Assembly: GCA_013285915.1 (NCBI GenBank)
Contig: JABDGS010000004.1
Span: 1 to 64,000 of the forward strand
Source of the DNA: Bacteroidota bacterium
GTDB taxonomy: Bacteria > Bacteroidota > Bacteroidia > Chitinophagales > Chitinophagaceae
DNA length: 64,000 nt
Reading direction: 5' to 3'
Part shown: positions 21,413 to 58,256 of the stretch, in pieces
How the letters are laid out: each line of letters begins with the position of its first letter
Numbering within the stretch: the stretch's first letter is position 1
Notes under the pieces: generated by a model
The model's input: only the letters and a program-made list of their open reading frames with translations
Database searches by the model: none
What the model was told of the DNA's origin: nothing
Translations under genes and position numbers: made by a program

Positions 21413-21547
21413 GATTAGGCGATTGCGGATTGCAGATTTGTTTGACGTGAGATAAATTGCATATCATTTCATCAATATTCACACAGATCTGCGAAATGGG
21501 CTTTTATATTCTCCATAATCCAATCTGCAATCCGCAATCGGGTAATC
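21413..21547. repeat. inverted pair of GATTGCG heptamer repeats between convergent genes
   Basis: GATTAGGCGATTGCGGATTGCAGATT (21413-21438) and AATCTGCAATCCGCAATCGGGTAATC (21522-21547); 24/26 complementary. Confidence 0.85.
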
Positions 21548-21567
21548 TGCAATAGCTTAATCTGCAA

Positions 21568-22401
21568 TCAATCGTGTACTACCATCAGCGGTACATGGCT
21601 GTGGAAGGCCAATTGTTTGGTGTGGCTGCGCTTAAACAGGCCTTCAAAAAAACCGTGCTTTTTAGGGATGGTTATAATAAGGTCAATGTTATTGTCAACT
21701 GCAAAACTGTTGATTGCTTCCACAAAGTCTGTGCTGTCAACAAAATGGTACTGCGGCTCGTAACCATAAAACAATGTATCAAGCATCAGGCTTTCAAATG
21801 GCGTATCGGGTGAAAAGTTCTTATTGCCATGGTCAATATTCAATACAAACAGTTTTGCTCTTGTTTCGTCAAGAATATGTTTAATGGCGCCTACAGGGGT
21901 TGTTTCAACAACCTGTTTAAAATCACAAGCCAGCATTACATTTTTAATACTTGAGAAAGCAGTACCAGGCGGTACTACAATTACCGGGATAGTTGAATGT
22001 TTGGCAACATTAACAGCGTTACTGCCGATTAAGACCTCATCAAGTTTACCACCACCTGTAACCCCCATTACGATAAGATCAATTTGCTTTGATTCCGCGA
22101 TATCCCTCCATCCATCGGCCAGGGTTATGTATTCCCCAACGGTCTCAAGCGTAACGCCTTCCGCAGCATGTGTTTGCAGTACTGTTTTAAAATGTTCAAG
22201 CCCTGTGTTGCTAATCTCTCTTATATCGTCAAAATTTATAAGCTCTACCGGCGTCATTGACGCATCTGTGGCAACAGGCTGCTGGTAAGCATTGTAAAGC
22301 ACTATTTTTTCGGCATGTAATTGCTGGGCAAGTTGCAAAGCATAAATCCCTGCCCTTTTCGCTGCTTCCGAAAAATCAGTTGGTACAAGTATGTTTTTCA
22401 T
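21568..22401 (-). CDS. universal stress protein (tandem UspA domains)
   Basis: MKNILVPTDFSEAAKRAGIYALQLAQ; DLIVMGVTGGGKLDEVLIGSNAVNVAKHSTIPVIVVP. Confidence 0.93.
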   Translation of the reverse strand: MKNILVPTDFSEAAKRAGIYALQLAQQLHAEKIVLYNAYQQPVATDASMTPVELINFDDIREISNTGLEHFKTVLQTHAAEGVTLETVGEYITLADGWRDIAESKQIDLIVMGVTGGGKLDEVLIGSNAVNVAKHSTIPVIVVPPGTAFSSIKNVMLACDFKQVVETTPVGAIKHILDETRAKLFVLNIDHGNKNFSPDTPFESLMLDTLFYGYEPQYHFVDSTDFVEAINSFAVDNNIDLIITIPKKHGFFEGLFKRSHTKQLAFHSHVPLMVVHD

Positions 22402-22531
22402 GTAGTGTATCTATTGAAGTGTAAAGTTCAAAAAGAATTAATATACTTATTACGAGTTATACCATACCGGTATAAAAATATTCACTCCTTGAAATCATTT
22501 TGCTGTGTAAACTTGTTTTGCGACAACGTAA

Positions 22532-22684
22532 TCAGTTTCCAGCTTTTAATTTCTGTTGCCGCAAATATTCTTGTATTTGAGCCAGTGTCATCTCCGAAAT
22601 ATCTTTTGAAATTCTTTCTTTAATGGCTCTAAAAGTCTCAACTGTATCAAATTCTTTCTCATTCACTTCCTTCTTCGTTTTCAT
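22532..22684 (-). CDS. putative 50-aa antitoxin partner of the adjacent PIN protein
   Basis: ORF missing from the track: MKTKKEVNEKEFDTVETFRAIKERISKDISEMTLAQIQEYLRQQKLKAGN; overlaps the PIN gene 3' end by 26 bp. Confidence 0.65.
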   Translation of the reverse strand: MKTKKEVNEKEFDTVETFRAIKERISKDISEMTLAQIQEYLRQQKLKAGN

Positions 22685-23135
22685 AATTGATAACATCTTT
22701 AGGTGAACGTATTTCTAATGTGGCATAACCATGCTTCAAATTTACCGAATTATACCCTCGTATCCTGTAAATATTAACAATGTGCTTAAAATTCCAACTC
22801 ACCAGAATATCTGCTTTGTTAATTGTAGCTAATGCAATATGCACACAATCGTCAAAACTGCTTTTGCCTACAACATTTTCAGCAATATACTCTCTCGCCA
22901 AATTAAGGGATTCATTTGTAATCTGAACAAATTCCATATTTTCATTTGGCAGCGTATTAATAAAATTTCTAACTTGTTCTGGTGCGTTATCAAGCTCACC
23001 AATTGTCAGATCTGAATACATGCAGATAATTTCGCCAAGTTTTACCTTTTCAAATAATTGGAGTGTCAGTTCATCAAATTCGATGTCATAAACACCACCG
23101 AAAACAGAAGTGTCAAAATAGAAACGCTGTTTCAT
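22659..23135 (-). CDS. PIN-domain protein, probable type II toxin nuclease
   Basis: RFYFDTSVFGGVYD, acidic SSFDDCVHIALATINKADILVSWNFKHIVN. Confidence 0.85.
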   Translation of the reverse strand: MKQRFYFDTSVFGGVYDIEFDELTLQLFEKVKLGEIICMYSDLTIGELDNAPEQVRNFINTLPNENMEFVQITNESLNLAREYIAENVVGKSSFDDCVHIALATINKADILVSWNFKHIVNIYRIRGYNSVNLKHGYATLEIRSPKDVINYENEEGSE

Positions 23136-23169
23136 ATTATGAAATTATTAAACTTGACATAGAGACAGG

Positions 23170-23550
23170 TTATCTTTTTTCGTATTCATACATTTTTGCT
23201 TCTTTAAGAAAAGTAAAATGGTTCCAATGAGCCCAAATGCTTACTGCAAAAGCAATACTTGAAAAAACCCGGGCAGTCGTATCTGTTTTTTTGTCCAATG
23301 ATTGCCCGGCCCAAAATCCACCAACAGCCCATCCCAAAGAAAACAAAATTGAAAAAATATATCTGAAAAATCTATTAGCAAAAAATAGCACTGCAAATAA
23401 AAATACTGCTGCAATACCAATTATTATACCTATTGCAGGATGAAGTTTAAAATATATTACCACAAGAATTGCAGTGGTGGCAGCAGCAATCAAAAATTCT
23501 GTGTATAAAATTGTATTTTTTCGCCTACGAATTATATATTTTCGAGTCAT
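23170..23550 (-). CDS. hypothetical multi-pass membrane protein
   Basis: hydrophobic ORF; start uncertain (track start 23610, internal ATG at 23550). Confidence 0.55.
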   Translation of the reverse strand: MTRKYIIRRRKNTILYTEFLIAAATTAILVVIYFKLHPAIGIIIGIAAVFLFAVLFFANRFFRYIFSILFSLGWAVGGFWAGQSLDKKTDTTARVFSSIAFAVSIWAHWNHFTFLKEAKMYEYEKR

Positions 23551-23721
23551 TAGCTTTTTATTTATGATTTTATAAATCATGCTTGCACTATAAATTTGCC
23601 CTTTTATCAAGAAACAACTATTACATTTATAATTTAAGCTCGCAACATAATTCTATTCGACTATCCGCATATAGCAACCTATTTCACCTTTGTATTCTCT
23701 GTGTGGATTTTTTCTTTGAGA

Positions 23722-23757
23722 CCTTTGTGGTTAAGGCTTTCGTTTTAGCCACAAAGG
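23722..23757. repeat. hairpin-forming intergenic sequence
   Basis: CCTTTGTGGTTAA ... TTAGCCACAAAGG, near-perfect inverted repeat between minus-strand genes. Confidence 0.5.
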
Positions 23758-23823
23758 ATTAACATAAAGGGCACAACACTGGCTTACATTGCTATCTGCA
23801 AATAGTCAATTACTTCTAACTTA

Positions 23824-25002
23824 TCAGGCTATATTCTCAATAATGCCTGCGATGCCCTGCCCACCACCAACACAAGCAGTAACCATACCATATTTTTTAC
23901 CAAGCCGCTCCATATCGGTTAGCAGTTGCACTGTTAATTTACAGCCGGTACAGCCCAACGGGTGACCCAATGCAATAGCCCCTCCGTTTATATTTACAAT
24001 ATCGGGATTAAGGCCAAGTTCATGTATTACAGCGAGCGCCTGCGATGCAAATGCTTCGTTCAGTTCGATCAAATCAATATCAGCAAGGCTCATATTTGCC
24101 TGCTTTAGTACTTTTGGTACCGCTGCCACCGGCCCAATGCCCATAATACGCGGGTGCACACCTGCGCTGGCGCAATTTACCAGCCTGCCAATGGGTTTTA
24201 AACCAAGTTCGTTCACCATCCTTTCACTCATCACAATTACAAATGCGGCACCATCGCTTGTTTGCGATGAGTTACCTGCCGTAACACAACCACCCTGCGC
24301 AAAAGCTGGCTTAAGCTTTGCCAATGCTTCCAGTGTGGTATCTGCACGTACACCCTCATCAGTATCAACCGTATAATTTCTTGTTTTACGTTTACCTTTT
24401 TCATCTACATATACCTGCTCAACATTTATTGGTAAAATGCCGGGTTTAAAATGCCCGTTCTGTATGGCATGCATAGCTTTTGTGTGGCTTTGCAGGGCAA
24501 ACAGGTCCTGGTCTTCACGGCTAACCTTAAATTCTTTGGCAACGGCTTCTGCAGTCAAACCCATGCTTAAATAGTAATCAGGCTCGTCTTTCGCTATGCT
24601 GTAAGCCGGCACAGTTTTCCACCCTGCGGTGGGTACAAGGCTCATGCTTTCGGTGCCGCCTGCTATAATACATTCGGCCATGCCCGAGCGAATTTTTGCA
24701 GTAGCCATAGCAATGCTTTCCAGCCCGCTGGCGCAGTAACGGTTAATTGTAATACCCGCCACCTCAATACCTAAAGCGCGCGCAGATATTATCCGCCCAA
24801 ATTGCAGGCCCTGCTCCGCTTCAGGCACAGCATTACCCACAATAACATCATCAACCCGTTTTACATCAAGCTGGGGAACAGATGCAGTTAACCCTTTAAT
24901 TACTTCAACCGCAAGGTCGTCAGGACGGTAAAACCTAAAAAAGCCGCGTTTGCTTTTGCCCACCGCTGTGCGGTAACCGGCCACTATATAAGCTTCCTGC
25001 AT
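23824..25002 (-). CDS. acetyl-CoA acyltransferase (thiolase)
   Basis: active-site sequence TINRYCASGLESIAMA; NINGGAIALGHPLGCTGCKL; VTACVGGGQGIAGIIE. Confidence 0.95.
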   Translation of the reverse strand: MQEAYIVAGYRTAVGKSKRGFFRFYRPDDLAVEVIKGLTASVPQLDVKRVDDVIVGNAVPEAEQGLQFGRIISARALGIEVAGITINRYCASGLESIAMATAKIRSGMAECIIAGGTESMSLVPTAGWKTVPAYSIAKDEPDYYLSMGLTAEAVAKEFKVSREDQDLFALQSHTKAMHAIQNGHFKPGILPINVEQVYVDEKGKRKTRNYTVDTDEGVRADTTLEALAKLKPAFAQGGCVTAGNSSQTSDGAAFVIVMSERMVNELGLKPIGRLVNCASAGVHPRIMGIGPVAAVPKVLKQANMSLADIDLIELNEAFASQALAVIHELGLNPDIVNINGGAIALGHPLGCTGCKLTVQLLTDMERLGKKYGMVTACVGGGQGIAGIIENIA

Positions 25003-25115
25003 AGCAATCTTATTTAATTACTTTCAAAATTAGTAAAAAGTTGTTTATGCAACTAATGTGAGTGCGCCACGAATTATTTAAAGATATTCAGTAAATTTGG
25101 AAAGAAAACGTTGCT

Positions 25116-25307
25116 ATGTTAACTTTAAGTGAAACAAAAAATATTATCTCTCAACTAAATCCAGAGGAAAAAAGGCAGCTGTTTCAATGGCTTCAGCAGG
25201 AGCAGGAAGAACAGGAGCTTTCCACTTTTTCCTTTGTAACATCGCATTCTGTTCTTGAAGAAGAATGGCTAACGCCCGAAGAAGACAAAGCATGGGAAAA
25301 TTTGTAG
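25116..25307 (+). CDS. small antitoxin-like protein upstream of PemK/MazF-family toxin
   Basis: 63 aa MLTLSETKNIISQLNPEEKRQLFQWLQQEQEE...; 3' end overlaps the toxin ORF. Confidence 0.7.
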   Translation: MLTLSETKNIISQLNPEEKRQLFQWLQQEQEEQELSTFSFVTSHSVLEEEWLTPEEDKAWENL

Positions 25308-25624
25308 CCGGAGATATAATTGTAGTCCCTTTTCCCTTTACTGATCTGACACAGTTTAAAAAGAGGCCCGCCTTGATTATTAAAGAAACTGGCAACGGAG
25401 ATTATATGTGCATGATGATAACATCTAAAGCATATTCGCCGGCATATAGTATTGAAATATTATCTTCTGATTATGTTGTATCAACTTTGCCTGTAAAAAG
25501 CTTTATACGCTACAACAGGATTTTTGAGGCCAACGAGCAGATAATCCTTAAAAAAGCAACGTCGCTTACGCAAGCTGCCACAAACACCGCCATCAAAAAA
25601 TTAATTGCTTTTTTGCAACCATAA
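25292..25624 (+). CDS. PemK/MazF-like toxin
   Basis: FVAGDIIVVPFPFTDLTQFKKRPALIIKE is the typical PemK N-terminus; ATG at 25292 preferred over track start 25265. Confidence 0.85.
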   Translation: MGKFVAGDIIVVPFPFTDLTQFKKRPALIIKETGNGDYMCMMITSKAYSPAYSIEILSSDYVVSTLPVKSFIRYNRIFEANEQIILKKATSLTQAATNTAIKKLIAFLQP

Positions 25625-25680
25625 CCACCAGCCTGAAACATCAGTTTCTTCAATCCCTTATTTCGTGTTTTCTTTGCAGT

Positions 25681-26760
25681 ATGTTTTACCCGCTTATACG
25701 CAATACACTGTTTGCCTTTGACCCTGAAGATGTGCATTATTTTGTGATGAACAATCTTAGAAGAAGCTGTGCTGTACCGGCTGTAAAAAGTATACTTCGG
25801 TCATCATTTCAATACGATCATCCATCGTTGCAGAAAAATGTTTTTGGGCTGCAATTTAAAAACCCGGTAGGACTGGGCGCAGGGTTTGATAAAAACGCGT
25901 TGTTTTTAAATGAGCTTGAAATGCTGGGTTTTGGCTTTGTGGAAATTGGCACTGTTACTCCAAAACCACAACCGGGAAACGAAAAGCCCCGTTTATTCAG
26001 GTTGAAAGAAGACAAGGCATTGATAAACCGCATGGGATTTAATAATGATGGGGTTGAGGCGGTTGCAGCAAGGCTGAAAAATCGTCAATCGTCAATCATC
26101 TCCAAAGGAGTCCATTGGGACAATCGACAATCGCCAATGATCATTGGCGGCAACATTGGTAAAAACAAGGTTACACCTAATGAGGATGCATGGAAGGATT
26201 ATGAGATATGCTTTAACGGCCTGTTTGATTGTGTGGACTATTTTGTAGTGAATGTTAGCAGCCCAAATACACCAGGATTGAGGGAACTGCAGGAGAAAGA
26301 TTCGCTTCGTAAAATTTTATCTCAGCTGCAAAATATTAATTACGGCAAGGCAGCCAAAAAGCCTTTGTTGCTTAAAATTGCACCAGACCTTACCAGTGAA
26401 CAATTAACCGATATTGTGGACCTTGCGTTTGAAGTAAAGCTTGATGGGCTGGTGGCAACGAATACGACGATTGACAGAAGAAATTTGAGTGAAAAGTCGA
26501 AAGTAAAGAGTGAGTTGATTGGTGCTGGAGGTTTAAGTGGTTTGCCTTTGCGTGAACGGGCAACACAGGTAGCGCAATATCTTGCAACACAGTTGCAGGG
26601 TAAAATACCACTTATTGCGAGCGGTGGTATTTTTACGGGGGATGATGCCAAAGAAAAATTAAACGCAGGGGCTGCATTGGTGCAGGTGTGGACAGGCTTT
26701 ATTTATGAAGGGCCGGGTATTGCAAAAAATATCTGCAAACACCTGGCAACAAAAAACTGA
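25681..26760 (+). CDS. pyrD: dihydroorotate dehydrogenase (quinone), class 2
   Basis: NPVGLGAGFDKNA, FVEIGTVTPKPQPGNEKPRLFRL, NRMGFNNDG, VNVSSPNTPGLRELQ, GLVATNTT, ASGGIFTGDDA. Confidence 0.97.
   Translation: MFYPLIRNTLFAFDPEDVHYFVMNNLRRSCAVPAVKSILRSSFQYDHPSLQKNVFGLQFKNPVGLGAGFDKNALFLNELEMLGFGFVEIGTVTPKPQPGNEKPRLFRLKEDKALINRMGFNNDGVEAVAARLKNRQSSIISKGVHWDNRQSPMIIGGNIGKNKVTPNEDAWKDYEICFNGLFDCVDYFVVNVSSPNTPGLRELQEKDSLRKILSQLQNINYGKAAKKPLLLKIAPDLTSEQLTDIVDLAFEVKLDGLVATNTTIDRRNLSEKSKVKSELIGAGGLSGLPLRERATQVAQYLATQLQGKIPLIASGGIFTGDDAKEKLNAGAALVQVWTGFIYEGPGIAKNICKHLATKN
26081..26148. repeat. core-bearing heptamer repeat inside pyrD
   Basis: AATCGTC AATCGTC AATCATC / CTCCAAAGGAGTCCATTGGGA / CAATCGA CAATCGC CAATGAT CATTGGC, in frame as NRQSSIISKGVHWDNRQSPMI. 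Confidence 0.75.
26489..26516. repeat. second heptamer-periodic stretch inside pyrD
   Basis: GTGAAAA GTCGAAA GTAAAGA GTGAGTT. Confidence 0.5.
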
Positions 26761-26780
26761 CACTTAATTAAAATATTTGC

Positions 26781-27560: not shown

Positions 27561-27564
27561 TTGC

Positions 27565-32314: not shown

Positions 32315-33511
32315 ATGAGTACTACAACACTTTCTTCCAACGAGTCTATTCCATCCAAGAAAAAAAAGATCATTGTTTTAGGCAGCGGCCCCAACAGAAT
32401 TGGGCAGGGCATTGAGTTTGATTATTGCTGCGTGCACGGCCTGTTAGCCATAAAAGAGTGTGGTTATGAAGCGATAATGGTTAACTGCAACCCCGAAACA
32501 GTGAGCACCGATTTTGATATGGCCGACAAGCTGTATTTTGAACCGGTTTACTGGGAACACCTGTGGGAGATAATTGAGCTTGAAAAACCCGATGGCGTTA
32601 TAGTACAGCTTGGCGGGCAAACGGCTTTAAAACTTGCGCGTAAGCTTACCAAAAAAGGCATACCCATTATAGGCACCTCTTTCGACAATATGGATATTGC
32701 CGAAGACCGTGGCCGTTTTAGCGATATGCTGAAGGAACTTAAAATACCTTACCCTGAATACGGTACTGCTTTTACTGCTGATGAAGCTATTGAGGTGGCA
32801 AAAAAAGTAGGCTTCCCTGTTCTTGTACGCCCCAGCTATGTGTTGGGTGGGCAAAGAATGAGAATTGTAATTAATGATGATGAATTAGAGAAAGCGGTGG
32901 TGAGCTTGCTGAAGCATATACCTGACAATAAGATTTTGATTGACCATTTTCTTGACCGTTGCCAGGAAGCAGAGATTGACGGCATTTTTGATGGCGACGA
33001 TTTTCACGTAATGGGTGTGATGGAGCATATTGAACCCGCAGGTATACACAGCGGCGACAGTAACGCGGTATTGCCGGCCTTTAACCTTACCCCGCTGGTA
33101 GTTACCACTATGGAATATTACGCGGAGAAAATTGCAAGGGCATTAGACATTCGCGGGTTGATAAACATACAATTTGCCATTAAAAACGATAAGGTGTATG
33201 TAATTGAGGCCAACCCCCGCGCCAGCCGCACAACGCCGTTTATTGCAAAGGCCTACCAAATACCTTACCTTAATATTGCTACCAAAGTAATGCTGGGCGC
33301 CGCAAAGCTTAAGGACTTTACGATGGAGAAAAACATGCAGGGTTTTGCAATAAAAGAGCCAGTGTTTAGCTTTAATAAATTTCCCAATGTAAATAAAGAG
33401 CTTGGCCCTGAAATGAAGAGTACGGGTGAGGCCATACGCTTTATAAAAGACCTGCGCGACCCATACTTTAGAACGCTTTATAAAGAGAAGAGCATGTATT
33501 TGAGCAAGTGA
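32315..33511 (+). CDS. carB: carbamoyl-phosphate synthase large subunit, C-terminal ATP-grasp half only (split CarB)
   Basis: 398 aa aligning by eye with the second half of E. coli CarB (VLGSGPNRIGQGIEFDYCCVHG; NCNPETVSTDFDMADKLYFEPV; RPSYVLGGQRM; LGPEMKSTGEAI); no N-terminal half and no MGS domain. Confidence 0.88.
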   Translation: MSTTTLSSNESIPSKKKKIIVLGSGPNRIGQGIEFDYCCVHGLLAIKECGYEAIMVNCNPETVSTDFDMADKLYFEPVYWEHLWEIIELEKPDGVIVQLGGQTALKLARKLTKKGIPIIGTSFDNMDIAEDRGRFSDMLKELKIPYPEYGTAFTADEAIEVAKKVGFPVLVRPSYVLGGQRMRIVINDDELEKAVVSLLKHIPDNKILIDHFLDRCQEAEIDGIFDGDDFHVMGVMEHIEPAGIHSGDSNAVLPAFNLTPLVVTTMEYYAEKIARALDIRGLINIQFAIKNDKVYVIEANPRASRTTPFIAKAYQIPYLNIATKVMLGAAKLKDFTMEKNMQGFAIKEPVFSFNKFPNVNKELGPEMKSTGEAIRFIKDLRDPYFRTLYKEKSMYLSK

Positions 33512-33514: not shown

Positions 33515-33535
33515 GATTGCGGATTGCAGATTGTG
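33515..33535. repeat. GATTGCG heptamer repeat
   Basis: GATTGCG GATTGCA GATTGTG, just after the carB stop. Confidence 0.75.
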
Positions 33536-36888: not shown

Positions 36889-36955
36889 CAATCCAATCTG
36901 CAATCTGTCACAAAGTGATCCCTTCGGGACAATCGGGTAATCTGCAATCCTCTAT
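36889..36955. repeat. core-bearing heptamer repeat, intergenic
   Basis: CAATCTG CAATCTG T / CACAAAGTGATCCCTTCGGGA / CAATCGG GTAATCTG CAATCC. Confidence 0.75.
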
Positions 36956-37602
36956 CCCGGTATCCTTGAAATATATTTTTCTATCTCTTTTATTTGGGTT
37001 ACAACTTCCTTGGTGGTGGGTTTCATTGCTTTTGCCTTGCGGAAGAACTCTTTTGCAGCACGAAACTCTCTTTTGTTCATAAATATCTGGCACATGCTTA
37101 AATAGGCCACGGCCTGGCTTTCTTTGTCAGGTATGCCGGCACGTATGGCAGCACGTATGTAGCCCTCGCCTGCCCTGAAATCGCCTTTTTGCAAAGCCAT
37201 CATGCCTAACTGCAATTTGTTGGCGCCTTCTGCCTCCGGCATTGCCGCACCAAGTGCTGAGCTTTTTTTAAGATGTTTTTCGGCAGCGTCAAAATCCTGG
37301 TTCATCATTGCAAGGTTGCCCTTAACAGTATAATATGTTGAACGGATAGGTTTATATAACAGGCCGGGAAACCAAATGCTGTCTAATATTTTTTGCACTT
37401 CTTCCACATTGCCCTGTTCCATAGGCTCCTGTATCAAACGCATTGGGCCGATAAAGAAATTGGAAAATAAGCCGATCACCGCCAGGAAATACAGCACAAA
37501 AGCAGGCCAAAAACCACTGGTCATATTCACCAATACCGCCAGCACTACTGCCACTATACTAAGCCAAAAGCGGTATCTGATTATAAGGCTATAAAACTTC
37601 AT
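36952..37602 (-). CDS. membrane protein with TPR-like repeats
   Basis: two N-terminal TM segments, then FDAAEKHLKKSSALGAAMPEAEGANKLQLGMMALQKGDFRAGEGYIRAAIRAG. Confidence 0.75.
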   Translation of the reverse strand: MKFYSLIIRYRFWLSIVAVVLAVLVNMTSGFWPAFVLYFLAVIGLFSNFFIGPMRLIQEPMEQGNVEEVQKILDSIWFPGLLYKPIRSTYYTVKGNLAMMNQDFDAAEKHLKKSSALGAAMPEAEGANKLQLGMMALQKGDFRAGEGYIRAAIRAGIPDKESQAVAYLSMCQIFMNKREFRAAKEFFRKAKAMKPTTKEVVTQIKEIEKYISRIPG

Positions 37603-37633: not shown

Positions 37634-37668
37634 AATTGCGGATTGGCGATGGCGGATCGCAGATTGAT
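37634..37668. repeat. heptamer repeat, 5 units
   Basis: AATTGCG GATTGGC GATGGCG GATCGCA GATTGAT. Confidence 0.7.
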
Positions 37669-37736
37669 GAAAAGTAAATATTAAACAGGAATATTAGAGA
37701 TAATAGGATATTTCTCAAAATGACGGAGTTGACATA

Positions 37737-37764
37737 CTATGAGCCATGAACTATTTGCCATGAA
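37737..37764. repeat. heptamer repeat, 4 units
   Basis: CTATGAG CCATGAA CTATTTG CCATGAA; 19-nt identity with 58238-58256. Confidence 0.75.
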
Positions 37765-37769: not shown

Positions 37770-38882
37770 TCACCCCTTCACATTCAGCGCATCCCGCAAC
37801 CCATTGCCTAACAGGTTAAAGGCAAGCACAAGTAACATTATAGCAATGCCGGGCTCAAGGGCAAGCATGGGGTTGTTAGTAATGATAAAATTATAGTTCT
37901 CCTTTATCATTAAGCCCCAGCTGGGTTGCGGCGGCTGCACGCCCACGCCTAAAAAGCTTAAACCAGCTTCAATTACTATAGCTGAGGCAAAATTACTTGC
38001 TGCTATCACCATAACCGGCCCCAGTATGTTGGGCAATATGTGCAACACAATAGTGCGGGCGTTGGAATAACCTAACACCCTTGTTGCCTCAATATACTCC
38101 AGTTCCCTAACGGCTAATACCTGCCCGCGTACCAGCCTGGCTACATTTACCCACATGGTAAGGCCAACTGCAATAAAAACCTGCCAAAAACCTTTACCCA
38201 ATAGTAGCGTAACAGCAAAAACCAGCAGTAAAGTGGGTATGCTCCATATAACATTTATAAGCCACATAATAATATCATCTATCCAGCCCTTAAAGTAACC
38301 GGCCAGCGCACCCAGCATTATGCCAATAGTTAACGAAATAACAACCGTTATTAAACCTACGCTAAGGCTAACCCGCGTGCCAATAATAAGCCTGCTTAAA
38401 ATATCCCTGCCAAATTTGTCGGTACCCAGCCAAAAAGTTTGTTGTACAATGTTTTTTTGCGGGGTAAAATGGTACACTATTGCTATAAGCGGGTAGCCTG
38501 CTTTTTCAGTAACGCCTTCATCCACATATTTGGTAACAATAAGGCTGTCGTTTACAACGCTGTAGCCGGTAATGGGCACGTAATCGTAAATATCTCTTTT
38601 GCCACCGGCCAATGTTCTAAAGAAACTATTATCATCCGGACCAATTTGCTTGTCAATTTTCAACAGTTTAATGCTAAAACCCGGCTTATGGTTAGCAATT
38701 TCGGGTATTATCCTGTTAGCGTTGGGCGAATTATCAGGCGCTAAAAAATAGCAAAACACCGCCGTCAAAAAAGCAAGCGCAATTATTACCAAACCAAAAA
38801 CAGCACCTTTATTTTTTAACAGGCGGCGGCGAAACATTGCGTTATTTGAGAAATTTGCCGGCATGGGTTGAAGATAGGGCAA
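37770..38882 (-). CDS. ABC transporter permease (DppC/OppC-like)
   Basis: FWLGTDKFGRDILSRLIIGTRVSLSVGLITVVIS and EAGLSFLGVGVQPPQPSWGLMI. Confidence 0.95.
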   Translation of the reverse strand: MPYLQPMPANFSNNAMFRRRLLKNKGAVFGLVIIALAFLTAVFCYFLAPDNSPNANRIIPEIANHKPGFSIKLLKIDKQIGPDDNSFFRTLAGGKRDIYDYVPITGYSVVNDSLIVTKYVDEGVTEKAGYPLIAIVYHFTPQKNIVQQTFWLGTDKFGRDILSRLIIGTRVSLSVGLITVVISLTIGIMLGALAGYFKGWIDDIIMWLINVIWSIPTLLLVFAVTLLLGKGFWQVFIAVGLTMWVNVARLVRGQVLAVRELEYIEATRVLGYSNARTIVLHILPNILGPVMVIAASNFASAIVIEAGLSFLGVGVQPPQPSWGLMIKENYNFIITNNPMLALEPGIAIMLLVLAFNLLGNGLRDALNVKG

Positions 38883-41098: not shown

Positions 41099-42613
41099 AT
41101 GTCACAGCTTAAAGTATATAATTCTTTAACCCGTACAAAAGAAGTATTTCAGTCAATAACGCCCGGCAGAATAGGCATGTACGTGTGCGGCCCCACTGTT
41201 AGCGGCGAAAGCCATTTGGGCCACGCACGCCCGTTTATAACGTTTGATATTGTTTACCGTTACCTTATGCATTTGGGTTATAAAGTACGCTATGTGCGCA
41301 ATATTACTGATGCAGGCCATTTTGAAGAAGAAGGCCGTGAAGCTGAAGATAAAATAAGCAAAAAGGCTGTGCTTGAAAAGCTGCAGCCCATGGAGCTTGT
41401 GCAGAAATACACCAATCTTTTTCATTGGGCCATGCACCAGTTTAATAATCTTGATCCTGCGATTGAGCCAACAGCCACCGGCCATATTATTGAGCAAATT
41501 GTAATGATTGAAAAAATAATTGTTGACGGCTACGCGTATGTGTCAAACGGCTCGGTTTATTTTGATGTAGAGAAATATAACACTGATTTTTCTAAGCTTG
41601 GCCAGCCTTATGGCATACTAAGCGGCAGGGTGCTTGATGATATGCTGGAAACCACCCGCGAGCTTGACAACCAGGAAGAGAAAAGAAACAAGGCGGATTT
41701 TGCTTTATGGAAAAATGCGCCACCGGAACATATTATGCGCTGGCAAAGCCCCTGGGGTGAAGGTTTTCCTGGGTGGCATATAGAATGCTCTGCAATGAGT
41801 GCAAAATATCTGGGCAGCGAATTTGATATACATGGTGGCGGTATGGACCTGCAGTTTCCGCACCACGAGTGCGAAATTGCGCAAAGCACCGTTTGCAACC
41901 ATATTATGCCTGCACGTTATTGGTTACATAATAACATGATAACCATTAACGGCAAAAAAATGGGTAAAAGCTATAATAATGTTATAAAGCTTACTGAGCT
42001 TTTTAGCGGCAACAGTCCTGTTTTAGAACAGGCTTATTCGCCCATGGTTATACGGTTTTTTATTTTGCAAACGCATTACCGCTCTACGCTCGATTTTAGC
42101 AACGAGGCCCTGCAAGCCTCTGAACGTGGCCTTAAACGCCTGTGGGAAGCCTATAATAATTTGAGTAAGTACGAGGCACGAGGTACGAAGTATGAAGTGG
42201 CTGATGATGTTGAACTTGATAAAAAAGTTAATGCATTGCTGGATGAGTTTGACGATTTTATGAATGATGATTTTAGTACCGCAAAAGTATTAGCCAACAT
42301 GTTTGAGCTTGTGCCTGTTATTAATGGCATAAAAGATAAACATATATCACCAACAGCTTTAAGCAGTAAAACCATTGAGGCATTGCAGGCGAAAATGAAA
42401 ACCTATCTTGAAGATATTTTTGGGCTGAAGGATGAGCAGGAAACAAATGACAATAAGCTTGATGGTGTACTGCAGTTGCTTATAAACATTCGCAAAGATG
42501 CCCGCGCAAAAAAAGACTATTTAACCAGTGACAAAATACGTAACGAACTTGCAAACATTGGCATACAGCTTAAAGACGAGAAGGATGGTAATATGAGTTA
42601 TAGTGTGGCATAA
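41099..42613 (+). CDS. cysS: cysteinyl-tRNA synthetase
   Basis: [62 protein letters not shown]. Confidence 0.97.
42169..42196. repeat. in-frame heptamer repeat inside cysS, 4 units
   Basis: GTACGAG GCACGAG GTACGAA GTATGAA, translated in the [11 protein letters not shown] segment. Confidence 0.75.
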
Positions 42614-46003: not shown

Positions 46004-46076
46004 TGGTGTGGGCCGGGATCGAACCGGCGACACAAGGATTTTCAGTCCTTTGCTCTACCGACTGAGCTACCGCACC
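46004..46076 (-). tRNA. tRNA-Phe (GAA)
   Basis: 73-nt cloverleaf GGTGCGG-TA-GCTC-AGTCGGTA-GAGC-A-AAGGA-CTGAAAA-TCCTT-GTGTC-GCCGG-TTCGATC-CCGGC-CCACACC-A; CCA not encoded. Confidence 0.95.
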
Positions 46077-46100: not shown

Positions 46101-46170
46101 TTTAAGTACCAAAGTCCAAATACAAATCTTAAAATTCTAAGCTTGGAATTTGGAATTTTCTTCCTTTGGT
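46101..46170. repeat. heptamer-periodic imperfect inverted repeat between tRNA-Phe and asnS
   Basis: ACCAAAG TCCAAAT ACAAATC TTAAAAT ... TTGGAAT TTGGAAT; outer arms AAGTACCAAAG / CTTTGGTGCTT. Confidence 0.6.
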
Positions 46171-47786: not shown

Positions 47787-49067
47787 TCAGGCTAATCTTT
47801 TCAACTCATTCAATTCATAGTTGAATGACAAAACTCCCGGTTTTTTCCCCTTTTCAAAGCCGCCTAACAAGCCATCCATACCCAGTGCTTTGGCTCCATT
47901 TAGGGTAGCCCATTGCAGCATTTCTTCAAGGCCAATGTGAGGGAAATGCCTGCGAAGGGTTTTTACTTCTCCCAGTATGCAAAGCATGTTGTTGCTTGCA
48001 AGGCTGTCGGTACCAAGTACTATATTGCAGTTATGCTTACGAAGCATATCAACCGGCGGCAAAGTGTCTTCAATATAAAGGTTGGCGTTGGGGCAAAGGC
48101 ACCAAATTGGAGATTGCAGGTTGTGGATTGTCTTACTGGACTCCTTTGGAGCAGATTGATTTGAATTTTCACGATTGACGATTGACGATTGACGATTGAC
48201 GAAAAAAACGTCTTCTTCACTGGTAAACGTATTATGCACCATTATCAATTTACCTGCCTTATCCAGTTCTGGCAAATAGGTTTGCAGGCTTGTTTTGCCC
48301 GGTGGCTGGAAGAAGGAAATGTCAATATTAAACAGTTTGAATAGTCTTCTAAAACCACTTTCACCTGTTAGAAAAAAGCCATTTTCCTCCTGAGATTCCT
48401 GGTTGTGTATAGTAATAGTTTTACCTGCCGAATGTTCATTTGTAAGCCGCATTAGCTCAGGGGAAGTAGAGTAAGGGGCGTGAGGAACGATGGAGGAAGT
48501 TAAAAGTATAGAGTTAAAAGTTAAAAGTTGTCGGTCAATTAACTCTTCACTTTTAACTTTTAACTTTTCACTGTCTTCAAATTGCTTCCAAACTGCTTCC
48601 GCCTGCTCAAAACGTTTTTGGGCGAAGGCCGGTACAAAACCAGTTGCTTCAATAAAATTGTAATAATGCAGGCCGCCTTTTTGCTTTTGCGGCAGCGTGT
48701 GTGCAGTGTTGCAAATATCGCCAACAGCTACAATGCCGTTGCTGATCATTTCGGCTTCGGCCTGCTCAATGGCATTATAAATTACTTCTTCGGCAAAGCC
48801 CCGCTGCTGCATTACCGTAATTACAAAATCAACCAACCCGGTTTTTTCGGGTATAATGCCCTTCATGTGGCTAAGTTCCAGGTGGCAATGGCTATTAATA
48901 AAACCCGGTGAAAGTATACCTGCGAGGTATTGTACATCATCGCCGCCTTCCGACAAGGGGACAAGATTCTCAATAACGCCGGTTTGCGTAGTAATTAGCA
49001 CCTGTTTATCCTCTAAAAACTTCGTTCCGTTAAAAATTTTATCTGCGGTAAATTTTAGGTAGCTCAC
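47787..49067 (-). CDS. amidohydrolase-family protein (SsnA/MtaD-like deaminase)
   Basis: GILSPGFINSHCHLELSHMKG, SSIVPHAPYSTSPELM, WCLCPNANLYIEDTLPP, LGTDSLASNNMLCILGE. Confidence 0.9.
   Translation of the reverse strand: MSYLKFTADKIFNGTKFLEDKQVLITTQTGVIENLVPLSEGGDDVQYLAGILSPGFINSHCHLELSHMKGIIPEKTGLVDFVITVMQQRGFAEEVIYNAIEQAEAEMISNGIVAVGDICNTAHTLPQKQKGGLHYYNFIEATGFVPAFAQKRFEQAEAVWKQFEDSEKLKVKSEELIDRQLLTFNSILLTSSIVPHAPYSTSPELMRLTNEHSAGKTITIHNQESQEENGFFLTGESGFRRLFKLFNIDISFFQPPGKTSLQTYLPELDKAGKLIMVHNTFTSEEDVFFVNRQSSIVNRENSNQSAPKESSKTIHNLQSPIWCLCPNANLYIEDTLPPVDMLRKHNCNIVLGTDSLASNNMLCILGEVKTLRRHFPHIGLEEMLQWATLNGAKALGMDGLLGGFEKGKKPGVLSFNYELNELKRLA
48112..48200. repeat. core-bearing heptamer repeat inside the amidohydrolase gene
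   Basis: GATTGCA GGTTGTG GATTGTC / TTACTGGACTCCTTTGGAGCA / GATTGAT ... GATTGAC x4 (48173-48200). Confidence 0.85.
48498..48569. repeat. inverted AGTTAAA heptamer repeats inside the amidohydrolase gene
   Basis: AGTTAAA AGTATAG AGTTAAA AGTTAAA AGTTGTC ... ACTTTTA ACTTTTA ACTTTTC. Confidence 0.85.
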
Positions 49068-51126: not shown

Positions 51127-51196
51127 AAAGCGTTTGCTGTTTCATGTTTACAGTTTTTAGGCCCAGCTAATAATTTGGGTGCACTTAATTAAAAAA

Positions 51197-51231
51197 ACTT
51201 GAAACCTGGAACTTGAAACCTGAAACTTATA
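51197..51231. repeat. heptamer repeat, 5 units, abutting the next start codon
   Basis: ACTTGAA ACCTGGA ACTTGAA ACCTGAA ACTTATA. Confidence 0.75.
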
Positions 51232-51232
51232 T

Positions 51233-52348
51233 ATGCGTATTGCGGTAATTCATCACATTAGTGCGGTAGAAAATGATTATGGTTTTTATGTGTCCGACCT
51301 GTTGTCGGAGTACGCAGCATGGCTGGGCTATGATGTGCAATTACTGGAAGATTTTGTGTTTTACAGTAATAAAACCAAATCACTTGCAGAAAATGCGGTA
51401 ATAGGTATTCATGTAAAGGCTGGCAGCAGTTTTGGCTTACGCTTGTGGTATAGTGTAAAGCTGCCTTCTATTCTTGCCCAAATAAAGGCCCACGTAGTAG
51501 TAAATCTTAACGGCATCTATAGCAGGTCAACCAAAATACCCCAATTGCTTGCTGTTTCAGACACTACATTTCTTGAAAACATAAAGCAGGCAAATTCTGG
51601 CTGGAAAAAGCTTGTTGCTAAAAATATTACGGCCTATACTTCAGGTGCTGCGGCTGTTTTTACCTATTCAAAACATGCTTCAGGTATAATAGAAAAAAGA
51701 ACGCAAAAAAGCCCGCACGTTGTACCTTACTGTGCAGGTAAAGACTACAAAGTATGGGAATGGCACGATAAGGTGCTTACAAAATCTGAGTTCACCAGTG
51801 GTAAAGAGTTTTTTATCTGCACGCTTGATGATAAAGACGTAGATCTGTGGTTAACAATACTTAAAGCTTTTTCAAAATTTAAAAAATGGCAGCAAAGCAC
51901 CATGCAATTAATATTGTTGCCAAAACATGATATTGTTCCGCTGAAGATAGTTGATAAACTGGCTACCTATAAATACAGGGATGATGTTCAAACGCTGGAT
52001 GGTTTATCAGAAAAAGAGAAATCCTCTTTGTTTGGCTGTGCCTACGCCATAATCCACATCCCTGTTAACGATGCTGATATTTTGCCTGTTGCAGAAGCTT
52101 TACAGTGTGCCATACCGGTAATAAGTGTTTCAGCAAGCCAAAGTTTAAAGGAATATGGTACCGATACCGGTATTGCCGTTAGTTCAGCTGATAGCGAGCT
52201 GTTAGGGGAAGCTATAATAAATGTGTTTAAGAACGAGGATCAAAAAACAAAAATGGCGGACAATGCCAAAGATCAGGCTGCAACTGTTAACCGTGACGAG
52301 ATAGCAAAATCGCTTTGGGAGTTAATTGAAGCAGCGGTAAAAAACTAA
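51233..52348 (+). CDS. glycosyltransferase family 1-like protein
   Basis: N-terminal Rossmann-like region; C-terminal YAIIHIPVNDADILPVAEALQCAIPVISVSASQSLKEYGTDTGIAVSSADSELLGEAI. Confidence 0.75.
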   Translation: MRIAVIHHISAVENDYGFYVSDLLSEYAAWLGYDVQLLEDFVFYSNKTKSLAENAVIGIHVKAGSSFGLRLWYSVKLPSILAQIKAHVVVNLNGIYSRSTKIPQLLAVSDTTFLENIKQANSGWKKLVAKNITAYTSGAAAVFTYSKHASGIIEKRTQKSPHVVPYCAGKDYKVWEWHDKVLTKSEFTSGKEFFICTLDDKDVDLWLTILKAFSKFKKWQQSTMQLILLPKHDIVPLKIVDKLATYKYRDDVQTLDGLSEKEKSSLFGCAYAIIHIPVNDADILPVAEALQCAIPVISVSASQSLKEYGTDTGIAVSSADSELLGEAIINVFKNEDQKTKMADNAKDQAATVNRDEIAKSLWELIEAAVKN

Positions 52349-52751: not shown

Positions 52752-52787
52752 CCGCAGATAATTCACCACTTAAAATAAATTAACCAT

Positions 52788-53963: not shown

Positions 53964-54171
53964 ACATTTTTACCTTCGGGGCGTTCATTATTAATTAACG
54001 TACTAAACCCGGCTGAACTGCCCAATAGGCGATTTTTATGCAGAAATAAGGTAAATTTGCAATTAATCCGGTATTAGCTTATTCATCCTTCTAAACAATA
54101 AGGTTTTTTCGTTTCAATTACGTTTATTTGTAACAGGTAAACTGCTGAAACGGGTTTTTTAAGGAAATACA

Positions 54172-54951
54172 ATGGAGTATAAAATAAAACAAACAGATAA
54201 ATTCAGGTATATTGAAGAGGGGGAAGGCGAAACCCTTATGTTGCTGCACGGGTTGTTTGGCGCCCTAAGTAATTTTAAAGATCTTATAGAATATTTCCGC
54301 ACCAAGTACAAGGTGGTGGTACCTATGCTGCCTTTGTTTGACCTTGATATTTTTCATACAACTGTAGGCGGCCTTGAAAAGCATGTGCAAAAGTTTATAG
54401 AGTTGAAAGGGTACAATAATATTCACCTGCTTGGCAACTCCTTGGGTGGCCACGTTGCGCTGGTGCACATTCTTAAACACCCGGAACGTATAAAATCTTT
54501 AATTTTAACTGGCAGTTCAGGCCTGTTTGAGAATGGAATGGGTGACAGTTACCCAAAGCGTGGCGACTACGAGTATATAAAGAAAAAAACCCAGGTTACC
54601 TTTTACGATCCGGCAACTGCCACCAAGGAACTGGTTGACGAGGTGTATGCCATTACCAATAACCGCATTACGGTTATTAAAATAATCGCTTTGGCAAAAA
54701 GTGCCATCCGTAACAATCTTAACGAGGAGCTAAACCAAATTAAACAGCCTACATTGCTTATTTGGGGCAATAACGATGCGGTTACGCCGCCTTTTGTTGC
54801 AAAGGAATTTAACAGGCTTATTCCCAACAGCGAATTATATTTTATTGACAAATGCGGCCACGCCCCTATGATGGAAGTACCGGCTGAATTTAACAGGATA
54901 CTGGAACAATTTTTATCCAGGCTTAAACAACCTGTTGCAGCGATAGTCTGA
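54172..54951 (+). CDS. alpha/beta hydrolase
   Basis: MLLHGLFGALSNFKD, nucleophile IHLLGNSLGGHVALVH, C-terminal CGHAPMMEVPAEFNRIL. Confidence 0.93.
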   Translation: MEYKIKQTDKFRYIEEGEGETLMLLHGLFGALSNFKDLIEYFRTKYKVVVPMLPLFDLDIFHTTVGGLEKHVQKFIELKGYNNIHLLGNSLGGHVALVHILKHPERIKSLILTGSSGLFENGMGDSYPKRGDYEYIKKKTQVTFYDPATATKELVDEVYAITNNRITVIKIIALAKSAIRNNLNEELNQIKQPTLLIWGNNDAVTPPFVAKEFNRLIPNSELYFIDKCGHAPMMEVPAEFNRILEQFLSRLKQPVAAIV

Positions 54952-54984
54952 TATTTAGTGTCATATCACCGCAAGGTTGCAAAT

Positions 54985-55647
54985 ATGTTAGTATCGCATA
55001 TCATAGAAACTAATTTTCCGCAGGTAAATTTTACTGATAAAATATCTTTTGCCCTTTTGCTAATGGATGATTATCATGTAGAGCACCTTGCTGTAGTTAA
55101 TGAAGAGGGTTTTGCAGGCATTATAGGCAAGGACGCATTGCTTGATGAAGACGAAGACAGCCTGCTGGATGTATTACAGGAGCAGTTGTTGCAGGCAAGC
55201 GTTTTACCACATGAGCATTTTCTTTCCGCAGTAAAGCTTGTTTCTGTAGCCGGCGATATTTCCCTTGTGCCTGTAGTCAACGAAAGCAAGGAGCTGCTTG
55301 GTGTTATAACTGCAAAAAAACTTATTCACGCATTGTCAATTTTTAATGCTGTTGACGAACCCGGTGGCGTAATTGTAATTGAAATGGATAAGCGTAACCT
55401 GTCGTTTGGTGAATTAAGCCGCCTGGTTGAAACCAATGATGCCTATATAACCCAATTAAATACCTATACTGAAACCTCAACCGGTTTATTGCAGGTTACG
55501 GTTAAGGTTAACAAGCTTGAAATATCTGACATTATTGCCACCCTGCAACGCTACGATTATAACATTCGCTACTACTTTGGCGAGGAGTTGTACGAAAACG
55601 AATTGAAAGAAAACCTTGATCTTTTGATGACTTACCTAAACATTTAA
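54985..55647 (+). CDS. CBS domain-containing protein
   Basis: two CBS-type motifs (DDYHVEHLAVVNEEGFAGIIGKDALLDE; ISLVPVVNESKELLGVITAKKLI); ATG at 54985 preferred over GTG 54958. Confidence 0.85.
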   Translation: MLVSHIIETNFPQVNFTDKISFALLLMDDYHVEHLAVVNEEGFAGIIGKDALLDEDEDSLLDVLQEQLLQASVLPHEHFLSAVKLVSVAGDISLVPVVNESKELLGVITAKKLIHALSIFNAVDEPGGVIVIEMDKRNLSFGELSRLVETNDAYITQLNTYTETSTGLLQVTVKVNKLEISDIIATLQRYDYNIRYYFGEELYENELKENLDLLMTYLNI

Positions 55648-55751
55648 ATGTTTTTCGGGTTATTTCATACGTTTGTTAAAATTATACGTATAAAAATAAA
55701 GAGAAGTGTAAAAGCCTATTTTTACCATTTACCAGTCCAACTGTACATTGA

Positions 55752-57191
55752 ATGAAATTTTTTTACAGGCAGCTAATACTATGGATATGTTGTGCTATGT
55801 GCCTGTGTTGTGCTGCGCAAAAAGATACAGTTGCGCCGCATGCCGCTCCAACTAACGCGTTTGATACATCAGTAAATTCTCCGCTATTGCTGGTAGCCGA
55901 TATAGCTATTTCAGGCAACAAAAAAACGAAAGCCTACATTATTGAGCGGGAAATACCCTTTAAGCAGGGTGATTATATTTTAAAGAAAGATCTGCTGGCC
56001 AAGCTTACGCTTGCAAAAGATCAAATAACCAACACTAGCCTGTTTGTTTACGTAGATGTATACGTTGTAAGCCAGTCGGGTGAGCTTGTGTTTATAAAAG
56101 TTGATGTAAAAGAAAGGTGGTACCTTTTTCCTTTACCATACTTTAAGCTGGTTGACCGTAATTTTAACCAATGGTGGGTTAAAGAAAACCATAGCCTTAA
56201 AAGGGTAAATTATGGCTTGAAATTTATGCAGAATAATGTGAGTGGCCGCAATGATATGCTCAATGTATTTTTAATAAGCGGCTATAATCACCAGGTCGAT
56301 TTAAGGTATATTCAGCCTTTTGCCGACAGGGCTTTGAAGAGCGGGCTCGACATAAGGTTCCTTTATTCGCAGCAGCACGAAATGAATTATGGCACTATTG
56401 AAAATAAACAGGCATTTTATAAAGAAAATGATAATTATACCAGGAAAACAATAAGGGCAGAAGGCGCATACCTGTACCGGCCCGCTGTAAGAACAAGGCA
56501 CTCCTTTAAGCTATCGTACGTTTATGAAGAAGTTGCTGATAGTGTTGCAAAGCTAAATCCTAATTATTTTTCGTACGGCGCCAAAAAAATAGCATTTCCT
56601 GAACTGTCATATTCGTTGCAATATTTCGGCGTTGATAATATTGCTTACCCGCTTAATGGTTTTGCATTTGATTTTTATTTACTGCAGCGGGGCTTTAATA
56701 AAAAGATGGATATGACCCAGTTTGAGTTTCATTCATCATACAGCCATCCTTTTATTGCAAAAACCAACATACAATTCCAGGCCGCAGGTATTATACGTGC
56801 ACCTTTTGACCAGCCCTATTATAACCAGCAGCTATTTGGTTATGGCGATATTTTTTTAAGGGGGCTTGAATATTATGTTTTAGATGGTGTTGCGGGCATT
56901 GTGGGGCGTGTTACCGAGCGAAAGGAATTATTTACAGTTGTTTTTAAGCCTAAATATAAAAAGCAACAATTGGCACCTGTGCCATTTAAATTTTACCTGA
57001 AAGCCTTTGGCGACGCGGGTTATGGCTACAGTACCGCACCGGGCAACGGCCTGCTTGGCAATAAGCTGCTAAGAACGTGGGGTATGGGCCTTGACATTGT
57101 TTCGCTGTACGACGCAGTGTTTAAGTTTGAATACAGCATTAACCAATTTGGTGAAAAGGGTTTGTTTTTTCATGTACAAGCCGACTTTTAA
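55752..57191 (+). CDS. BamA/TamA-like POTRA and beta-barrel outer membrane protein
   Basis: LLVADIAISGNKKTKAYIIEREIPFKQGDYILKKDLLAKL POTRA and C-terminal barrel ending GEKGLFFHVQADF. Confidence 0.87.
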   Translation: MKFFYRQLILWICCAMCLCCAAQKDTVAPHAAPTNAFDTSVNSPLLLVADIAISGNKKTKAYIIEREIPFKQGDYILKKDLLAKLTLAKDQITNTSLFVYVDVYVVSQSGELVFIKVDVKERWYLFPLPYFKLVDRNFNQWWVKENHSLKRVNYGLKFMQNNVSGRNDMLNVFLISGYNHQVDLRYIQPFADRALKSGLDIRFLYSQQHEMNYGTIENKQAFYKENDNYTRKTIRAEGAYLYRPAVRTRHSFKLSYVYEEVADSVAKLNPNYFSYGAKKIAFPELSYSLQYFGVDNIAYPLNGFAFDFYLLQRGFNKKMDMTQFEFHSSYSHPFIAKTNIQFQAAGIIRAPFDQPYYNQQLFGYGDIFLRGLEYYVLDGVAGIVGRVTERKELFTVVFKPKYKKQQLAPVPFKFYLKAFGDAGYGYSTAPGNGLLGNKLLRTWGMGLDIVSLYDAVFKFEYSINQFGEKGLFFHVQADF

Positions 57192-57244
57192 TTTATCTTG
57201 CTGTTGTGGTTTAACAACCAGGGCCACCAATAAATTTTCCCCAC

Positions 57245-58120
57245 ATGAAAATTGCCATTTACAGCAGAGGTTTGGGCGATGACATGAAAAGCCAGCTTGA
57301 TATATTATTAGGCGAGTTGCAAAAGCATGATATTAGAATATGCCTGCATTCCCAACTGGGCGACTACGATTTAAGCCAACACAATAATACAAACATTGAT
57401 TTTTTTTCAGGCTTCAATGAGCTTGATGCTACCATTGATTTTTTAATAAGCCTCGGTGGCGATGGTACCATATTAGATACTGTTACACTGGTACGCGATA
57501 AAAATATACCTGTGCTGGGTATAAATTTTGGCAGGCTTGGCTTTTTGGCAAGTGTTAGTAAAGAGGAGCTTACAACAGCCGTAGACGCACTGGTTAACGG
57601 GACTTATATAATTGACAAGAGAACGCTTATTCACCTGGATGCCGATCCCGCCCTTTTTGATGAAGCACCTTTTGGGCTGAACGAGTTTGCTATACACAAG
57701 CGCGATACATCCCCCATGATAAAGATTCATACCTATCTTAACGGCGAATTTTTAAACTCGTATTGGGCGGATGGTTTAATAGTGTCAACACCAACAGGTT
57801 CAACCGGCTATAATATGAGCTGCGGCGGCCCTATAGTTTTTCCCGAGTCGTCAAGTTTTGTTATTACACCTGTTGCGCCGCATAATCTCAACGTAAGATC
57901 AATTGTAGTACCTGACAACAATATTATTTCATTTGAAATTGAAGGCAGAAGCGAACAGTTTATTTGCGCCCTTGACGCGCGCAGGGAGATAGTTGATAAA
58001 AATGTACAATTAGCGGTAAAAAAAGAAAAATTTAAAATGAGCCTGCTGCTGCTTAATGAAAATAATTTCCTCTCTACCCTGCGCACCAAACTTACCTGGG
58101 GGTTGGATAAAAGAAATTAA
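57245..58120 (+). CDS. nadK: NAD kinase
   Basis: DFLISLGGDGTILDTVTLVRDKNIPVLGINFGRLGFLA; DGLIVSTPTGSTGYNMSCGGPIV. Confidence 0.97.
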   Translation: MKIAIYSRGLGDDMKSQLDILLGELQKHDIRICLHSQLGDYDLSQHNNTNIDFFSGFNELDATIDFLISLGGDGTILDTVTLVRDKNIPVLGINFGRLGFLASVSKEELTTAVDALVNGTYIIDKRTLIHLDADPALFDEAPFGLNEFAIHKRDTSPMIKIHTYLNGEFLNSYWADGLIVSTPTGSTGYNMSCGGPIVFPESSSFVITPVAPHNLNVRSIVVPDNNIISFEIEGRSEQFICALDARREIVDKNVQLAVKKEKFKMSLLLLNENNFLSTLRTKLTWGLDKRN

Positions 58121-58130
58121 CATCAAAAGG

Positions 58131-58256
58131 TTCATAGTTCATGGCTCATCGTTCATAGAGGAGCAAGCACGTTGAATTTAAATACAGCCTCAGGTTCCTA
58201 CTTCAATAAACTGCCGGGCATACTCTTACTATTAGCTATGAACTATTTGCCATGAA
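58131..58256. repeat. inverted pair of TTCATAG heptamer repeats
   Basis: TTCATAG TTCATGG CTCATCG TTCATAG (58131-58158) and CTATGAA CTATTTG CCATGAA (58236-58256). Confidence 0.75.

Follow-up and report, generated by a model that had tools for sequence, protein, structure and literature searches.

Seven-base-pair tandem arrays in a Chitinophagaceae genome, with units common within genomes and turnover at orthologous slots

Tandem repeats with a seven-base unit are known from several bacterial groups. Heptanucleotides dominate among long simple sequence repeats, as reported by Mrazek, Guo and Shah in 2007 according to the citation in PMC4679880. GGGNATC repeats of Xanthomonas and Nostoc, for which G-quadruplexes have been discussed, occur genome-wide with a period of 7; on the sense strand they lie near stop codons, on the opposite strand before open reading frames (ORFs), and many form convergent inverted pairs in Xanthomonas (Rehm 2015, PMC4692102). 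For the TAACTGA direct repeats of Beggiatoaceae, Cyanobacteria and a few Bacteroidetes, a translational role and horizontal transfer have been proposed (MacGregor 2015, PMC4679880). The introduction of PMC4692102 describes the STRR sequences of heterocystous cyanobacteria as heptanucleotide tandem repeats in intergenic DNA. Here we describe a population of short 7-bp tandem arrays in a 64,000-nucleotide stretch of a Bacteroidota bacterium of the Chitinophagaceae (assembly GCA_013285915.1, contig JABDGS010000004.1, positions 1 to 64,000), hereafter called the window. It corresponds to contig C4 of a genome of 4.26 Mb (the source genome) whose assembly comprises 226 contigs and is 63% complete. 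Gene content and the relatives of its genes point to a Chitinophagaceae-like family of Bacteroidota.

These arrays are the same kind of object as the Mrazek heptamers and the TAACTGA and GGGNATC repeats, and the initial annotation of the window was right to note a resemblance to heptanucleotide repeats. As in the heptanucleotide long simple repeats, tandem 7-nt runs are longer than chance, period 7 stands above other unit lengths and the phylogeny is scattered; the arrays described here differ in being short and imperfect, often arranged as inverted arms, homogenised in unit within each genome and replaced at orthologous slots. With the GGGNATC repeats they have in common the period, the genome-wide spread and the geometry, a G-rich strand running outward from stops and, on the other strand, before starts, together with inverted pairs, whereas several units occur per genome here and G-tracts are absent; none of the 19 unit classes of the source-genome arrays is GGGNATC. 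TAACTGA repeats are likewise heptamers near genes, including genes of Bacteroidetes, but they consist of a single unit in direct orientation with only one inverted case reported, and their unit (class AACTGAT) is missing from the source-genome unit classes. STRR sequences are similar as intergenic heptamer tandems and are set apart, by their description, by organism and unit.

Short dispersed palindromes form another comparison. REPs come with a partner transposase. REP and REPIN elements are short dispersed palindromic DNA of conserved sequence, mostly intergenic and multiplied within a genome (PMC3116915, PMC3733652); the arrays are also dispersed, palindromic and multiplied within the genome, but only their period is conserved. 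In the open-access literature, a weak basis for a negative, we found no account of unit replacement at orthologous slots, of arrays recurring in one loop of essential enzymes or, across phyla, of units shared within genomes. No cause has been tested for the bacterial heptamer excess since it became known in 2007, and comparison of slots makes the cause testable.

Segments matching themselves at a given lag were counted at a score of at least 11 in 464 kb of the source genome, with five dinucleotide shuffles in 2-kb blocks as the null. There were 18 segments at lag 7, 16 at lag 14 and 13 at lag 21, compared with 0-5 at each lag not divisible by 7 and none at lag 7 in the shuffles. Over 861 kb, lag 7 gave 50 segments and the best non-multiple of 7 gave 12. 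Plain autocorrelation of the whole window showed no raised lag-7 identity (0.2538), because the tracts are few and cover few bases; the excess sits in local segments, and the lag-7 test must therefore be run on segments. Counted in this way, the excess over shuffled sequence anticipated by the initial annotation is real and confirmed in the source genome. Coding DNA makes up 88% of the sequence, yet only 17 of 58 arrays lie in genes, most being intergenic; gene calls behind the position and polarity counts were simple longest-ORF calls.

Array content was patchy among genera, judged from samples of 30-80 kb per genome. Density reached 21 per 100 kb in genome G012 and was 0 in G016, G017 and G005 of the same family (30-60 kb sampled). 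A minor step of 8 was seen in G012 and G419, where octamer arrays (AATAACTG, AATTTGAA, CATTCACT) with inverted arms stand beside heptamer arrays (L094, L095, L321 and L322 in G012; L309 and L311 in G419).

Most arrays of the source genome belonged to one of a few families: GTGAATC/GTCAATC/GTGAAAC (GATTGAC in the window), GATTGCA/GATTGCG, AAACTTT/AAACTTG/AAACTGG, AGTTAAA/AGTGAAA, GTTCATA and AAGTACG. Within some arrays (L015:12426-12473, L067:1584-1613, L076:9892-9935) families intergrade in unbroken 7-bp register, as in ACTTTTC-ATTCTTC-AAACTTC-AAACTGG. In named genomes, an exact search with the unit CGATTSACGATTSACGATTSACG gave at least 118 matching stretches, spread over Chloroflexi, Acidobacteriota, Verrucomicrobia, Planctomycetota, Omnitrophota, Nitrospinota, Desulfobacterota, Proteobacteria and Bacteroidota, against a chance expectation that we estimate at <0.1 in 257 Gb. 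The 854 kb around these matches (the cross-phylum set) contained 329 segments at lag 7, compared with 36 at lag 8 and no more than 28 at any other non-multiple of 7, in 134 unit classes, of which 132 were distinct besides the query unit.

With the query unit excluded, the probability that two arrays of this set had the same unit was 0.107 within a record (arrays >400 bp apart) and 0.0037 between records, a difference of about 29-fold. Around tilS, pyrD and cysS, 14 of 69 within-genome array pairs (20.3%) agreed to within one mismatch, versus 3.6% between genomes. From one genome to another the choice of unit is thus close to random, while inside a genome the same units are strongly shared. The initial annotation had described a shared period without a shared unit; the period is indeed common and no single unit is, but the units are not unrelated from locus to locus, as they belong to few families dispersed within a genome, some of which intergrade. 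The order of unit variants was conserved between places (20.6 versus 19.9 after order shuffling, 2.4 standard deviations), and inverted arms mirrored each other in unit order (p about 0.003). Two simpler accounts of the units were rejected. A universal sequence motif, fitted by expectation-maximization over the 132 classes, stood barely above random, and no conserved palindromic core of the REP/REPIN type was found among them. Horizontal spread of one unit was considered since (CGATTSA)n occurs in many phyla, but reversed-pattern controls were likewise common in some genomes, and the wide occurrence of a single unit therefore proves little.

Arrays form blocks of about 20-60 bp, often with two inverted arms. 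In the source genome, 19 of 58 arrays had an inverted partner within 250 bp (5.8 expected), which bears out the many inverted pairs noticed in the initial annotation, and 15 had a direct one (4.8 expected). Adjacent arrays in the cross-phylum set were inverted in 67 cases and direct in 21; random pairs split evenly. The polarity of the pairs is fixed: the left (5') arm was richer in G than in C in 65 of the 74 inverted pairs with unequal counts.

To compare orthologous slots, the congeners G001 and G002 were examined by eye, followed by the loops of TilS and PyrD; an automatic slot table (four regions, 25 slots) was too strict and too small for use. The slot 3' of the NAD kinase gene (window 58120-58290) holds GTTCATA arms here; in G001 the arms belong to the AAGTACG family, and G002 has an array of the GTGAATC family. 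Upstream of ORF 36952-37602, GATTGCG units here correspond to AGTTTCC-family units in G002. The slot after carB (array 33515-33533) is empty in both congeners, the arrays at 36889-36950 and 51195-51228 (before ORF 51233-52348) are absent in G002, and slot L015:18708, occupied here, lacks an array in at least one congener. After the OmpA gene, G001 has a short AAGTNNA array. The comparison of orthologous loci proposed in the initial annotation thus revealed gain, loss and replacement, and not ancient conserved sequence.

Turnover was also seen inside genes. Tracts do lie within essential enzymes, as first claimed, in the case of cysS and pyrD, and the third in-gene case, ORF 47787-49067 (minus strand), encodes an aminofutalosine-deaminase-like amidohydrolase; the tract at 33515 is not within the CarB-like ORF but comes after its stop codon. 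The cysS loop array (42167-42198) is partly common to G001 and is absent from G002 and other genera. In the amidohydrolase, the loop encoded at 48168-48202 reads VNRQSSIVNRE here and VKRETANVN in G002, while loop 1 (48539-48572) reads SEKLKVKSEEL here and in G001 and VNRETGNVNRETSTVNRQ in G002, where it carries GTGAAAC-type units (VNRETGNVNRETS). Such peptides, like the 12-residue stretch of cysS, can be recent DNA-level intrusions and not conserved protein features. Outside the window, tilS (L015:19483-19585; named from sequence) carries an array loop between R-Y-x-W-F and the AHHxxDxIET motif. Seven-bp arrays occupied this loop in 12 of 27 resolved genomes, with mostly different units, so that the TilS loop of one family samples many units at one period. 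Codon shuffling predicted 0.02 array loops at a score of at least 10, and lags 5, 6, 8, 9 and 10 gave 0 or 1. Two tracts were present in 9 of the 12 array loops, the second being a recognisable reverse complement in about half and otherwise another unit. In PyrD, arrays occurred in 8 of 30 genomes, again with mostly different units; in length, 4 of the 8 array loops (28-29 amino acids) fell inside the span of the array-free ones (21-31 amino acids), which suits overwriting. Two Flavobacterium species were compared at sites with well-conserved flanks: site B119135 carries 7-bp arrays with different letters and the ACT step kept, and at site B109702 one species has an 8-mer array where the other has a 7-mer array. 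Arrays with differing units recur at orthologous slots, essential-enzyme loops included.

We tentatively favour, at a probability of about 0.48, a genome-wide population of fast-turning 7-bp array blocks that would be copied within the genome, undergo slippage in addition and be largely selfish or neutral. Existing arrays would be copied as blocks to new places and over old arrays of the same genome, most likely by ectopic recombination or by template switching at hairpin-prone or nicked DNA. Slippage may then lengthen or shorten them in 7-bp steps, and copies would persist where harm is small: at gene ends, between genes and in protein loops. We infer recombination or template-switch copying, slippage and the lack of a dedicated function from several of the patterns above. 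Within-genome unit sharing together with conserved and mirrored unit order favours copying from array to array, and different units at one slot in relatives point to some copying process that keeps the seven-base step and not the letters. Because gain or loss of 7 bp shifts the frame, growth by single units in cysS, pyrD or tilS should be purged and is an unlikely origin of their arrays, as opposed to arrival in blocks or 21-bp steps; in-gene array blocks were probably written at once. These findings speak against one-unit growth and point to copying that overwrites coding DNA in frame. Blending in register fits recombination between partly similar arrays, and slippage too. A common generating mechanism, as first suggested, is upheld; a helical constraint, offered as its alternative, is not supported as a general cause, given that the helical repeat is not 7 bp, that genes are depleted of tracts and that some sister genera are poor in arrays.

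Several observations weigh against within-genome copying. No copying event with an identified donor was caught in the compared genomes, and the unit-order and mirror tests, while significant, showed small effects. The rule of the G-richer 5' arm is not predicted by plain recombination, and copying leaves the step of 7 (8 in some genomes) unexplained. Array-poor genera within the family suggest that a genetic factor is required.

An origin by turnover in place is doubtful, though it merits serious attention. Ancient arrays would occupy inherited slots and change by 7-bp slippage and point mutation with the register kept, as ordinary heptanucleotide simple repeats. Different families do intergrade in register, relatives share slots, and in most genomes no unit length is more frequent among long simple repeats than the heptamer (Mrazek 2007, cited in PMC4679880). 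However, in-place turnover gives no account of unit sharing among the places of one genome, of inverted arms or of frame-safe arrays in essential genes, and many slots are empty in congeners. A bolder account, which we regard as rather unlikely, is an undiscovered bacterial process that writes heptamer (in some lineages octamer) blocks: a ruler would fix the step, donors or templates specific to each genome would supply the letters, arms of fixed polarity would be added on either side of a break, and essential-gene loops would be repeatedly overwritten across genera.

Position and folding raise the question of selected hairpins, in which inverted heptamer arms next to gene ends would function, at the RNA or the DNA level, as terminators, insulators or protectors of mRNA ends. 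Arrays within 10 bp of stop codons were in excess in the source genome (16 versus 5.4 expected) and in the cross-phylum set (60 versus 31). Near gene boundaries, whether at a stop or at a start, the strand leading away from the gene was the G-richer one in 114 cases versus 25 (three sets summed), and folds were stable, the strongest with a z of -8.2. In Acidobacteriota (L142, L154, L177, L187, L198) AAAAGC...GCTTTT flanks enclose some of the inverted heptamer arms, which look as though they had expanded inside terminator-like hairpins. Selection for hairpins is nevertheless improbable, as arrays also lie between divergent genes, before start codons and in coding loops, many are single arms, and they are lost in congeners and nearly absent from sister genera. 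Termination was rejected as the main function on the same grounds of position between divergent genes and before starts, and is not supported as a general cause. The units described here contain no G-tracts, and G-quadruplexes therefore cannot be the general cause of the outward-strand rule.

Arm polarity would also be expected from a dedicated writer, a template-directed enzyme (a telomerase-like reverse transcriptase or other polymerase) that would extend the 3' ends at a break with heptamers before rejoining: the 65 of 74 pairs may reflect repeat addition to both ends, and the step stays fixed while the unit changes freely. Bacteria can make tandem-repeat DNA with DRT10 reverse transcriptases, but the main DRT10 product described is cDNA with a 9-nt repeat and not chromosomal arrays (PMC12632851), and mixed units in one array would require several templates. 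A search for RVT_1, which could miss very divergent reverse transcriptases, gave no match in the array-bearing, 99% complete genomes G002, G023 and G419, so that the enzyme expected for DRT10-type synthesis was not found there; the array-poor G017 and G005 have a match. A reverse transcriptase, rejected on this evidence as the cause, seems not to be required for arrays, and we hold a dedicated writer to be quite improbable. Chance or assembly artefact, which the fragmented assembly of the window might suggest, is refuted almost beyond doubt by the shuffle controls, by genomes of one or few contigs that have the pattern (G743, G023) and by its recurrence across phyla.

Tract coordinates in the window were checked by direct reading and with Tandem Repeats Finder (TRF). 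The dozen or so tracts first listed were readable at their places; the one at 46108, the partner of 46143-46158, is weak, with two units only, and was not recovered by TRF.

Table 1. Seven-bp tracts in the window, with strand, context and recovery.
Position	Strand	Unit	Context	Remarks	Recovery
21413-21439	+	GATTGCG/GATTGCA	directly past stop of ORF 19288-21402	5' (left) arm of inverted pair; folds with 21521-21540, 19-bp stem, z -4.9	reading, TRF
21521-21569	-	GATTGCA family	beside stop of ORF 21568-22401 (-)	right arm; not in initial annotation	TRF rows 21521-21553, 21529-21569
26080-26100	-	GATTGAC family	within pyrD	encodes NRQSSII; not in initial annotation	
26119-26138	-	GATTGTC/GATTGGC	within pyrD	second tract in one loop; not in initial annotation	
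33515-33533	+	GATTGCG/GATTGCA	3 bp past stop of ORF 32315-33511 (CarB-like)		reading, TRF
36889-36950	-	GATTGCA family	past stop of ORF 36952-37602 (-)	broken array; tract 36889-36907 confirmed	reading, TRF
37634-37666	+	GATTGCG/GATTGGC/GATGGCG/GATCGCA	upstream of ORF 36952-37602 (-)		reading, TRF
37735-37764	-	CTATGAG/CCATGAA	3' end of ORF 37770-38882 (-)		reading, TRF
42167-42198	+	AAGTACG family	within cysS	length-variable loop; encodes 12-residue peptide	TRF
46143-46158	+	TTGGAAT	adjoining tRNA (46004-46076, -)	short tract	TRF
48168-48202	+	ACGATTG x4.6	within ORF 47787-49067 (-)	encodes VNRQSSIVNRE	TRF
48497-48529	+	AGTTAAA	within ORF 47787-49067 (-)	one hairpin arm; hairpin z -3.6	TRF
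48539-48572	-	AGTGAAA/AGTTAAA		reverse-complement arm of AGTTAAA array; encodes SEKLKVKSEEL; not in initial annotation	TRF
51195-51228	-	AAACTTG/AAACCTG	6 bp upstream of ORF 51233-52348 (+)		TRF
58130-58158	+	GTTCATA/GTTCATG	9 bp past stop of NAD kinase (57245-58120)	folds with 58228-58257, z -2.6	TRF
58228-58257	-	GTTCATG	upstream of next gene	inverted partner; not in initial annotation	TRF

The tRNA gene at 46004-46076 (minus strand) was the sole Rfam match of the window. Elsewhere in the source genome, L021:2160-2257 contains 14 perfect GATTGCA copies, by far the longest perfect array seen there and likely a length-variable site. The end of G001 contig C68 (matching window 51267) and contig C142 have ends near source-genome array positions, and arrays may therefore break assemblies.

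In Flavobacterium granuli (L289-L291, first 53 kb of the contig) and a congener (L296-L298), a variable region was crowded with 7-bp arrays. This region consists partly of tandem cassettes of about 170 bp alternating with a hairpin element (TCACTTCGAGTGA...TATCGAGAAGT), and the adjoining conserved 85 kb is almost array-free. Other short dispersed repeats, unrelated to the heptamers and possibly like miniature inverted-repeat transposable elements, were seen at L015:16891-16949 (about 60 bp) and L015:796-853 (about 45 bp); G001 and G002 contain them in many copies.

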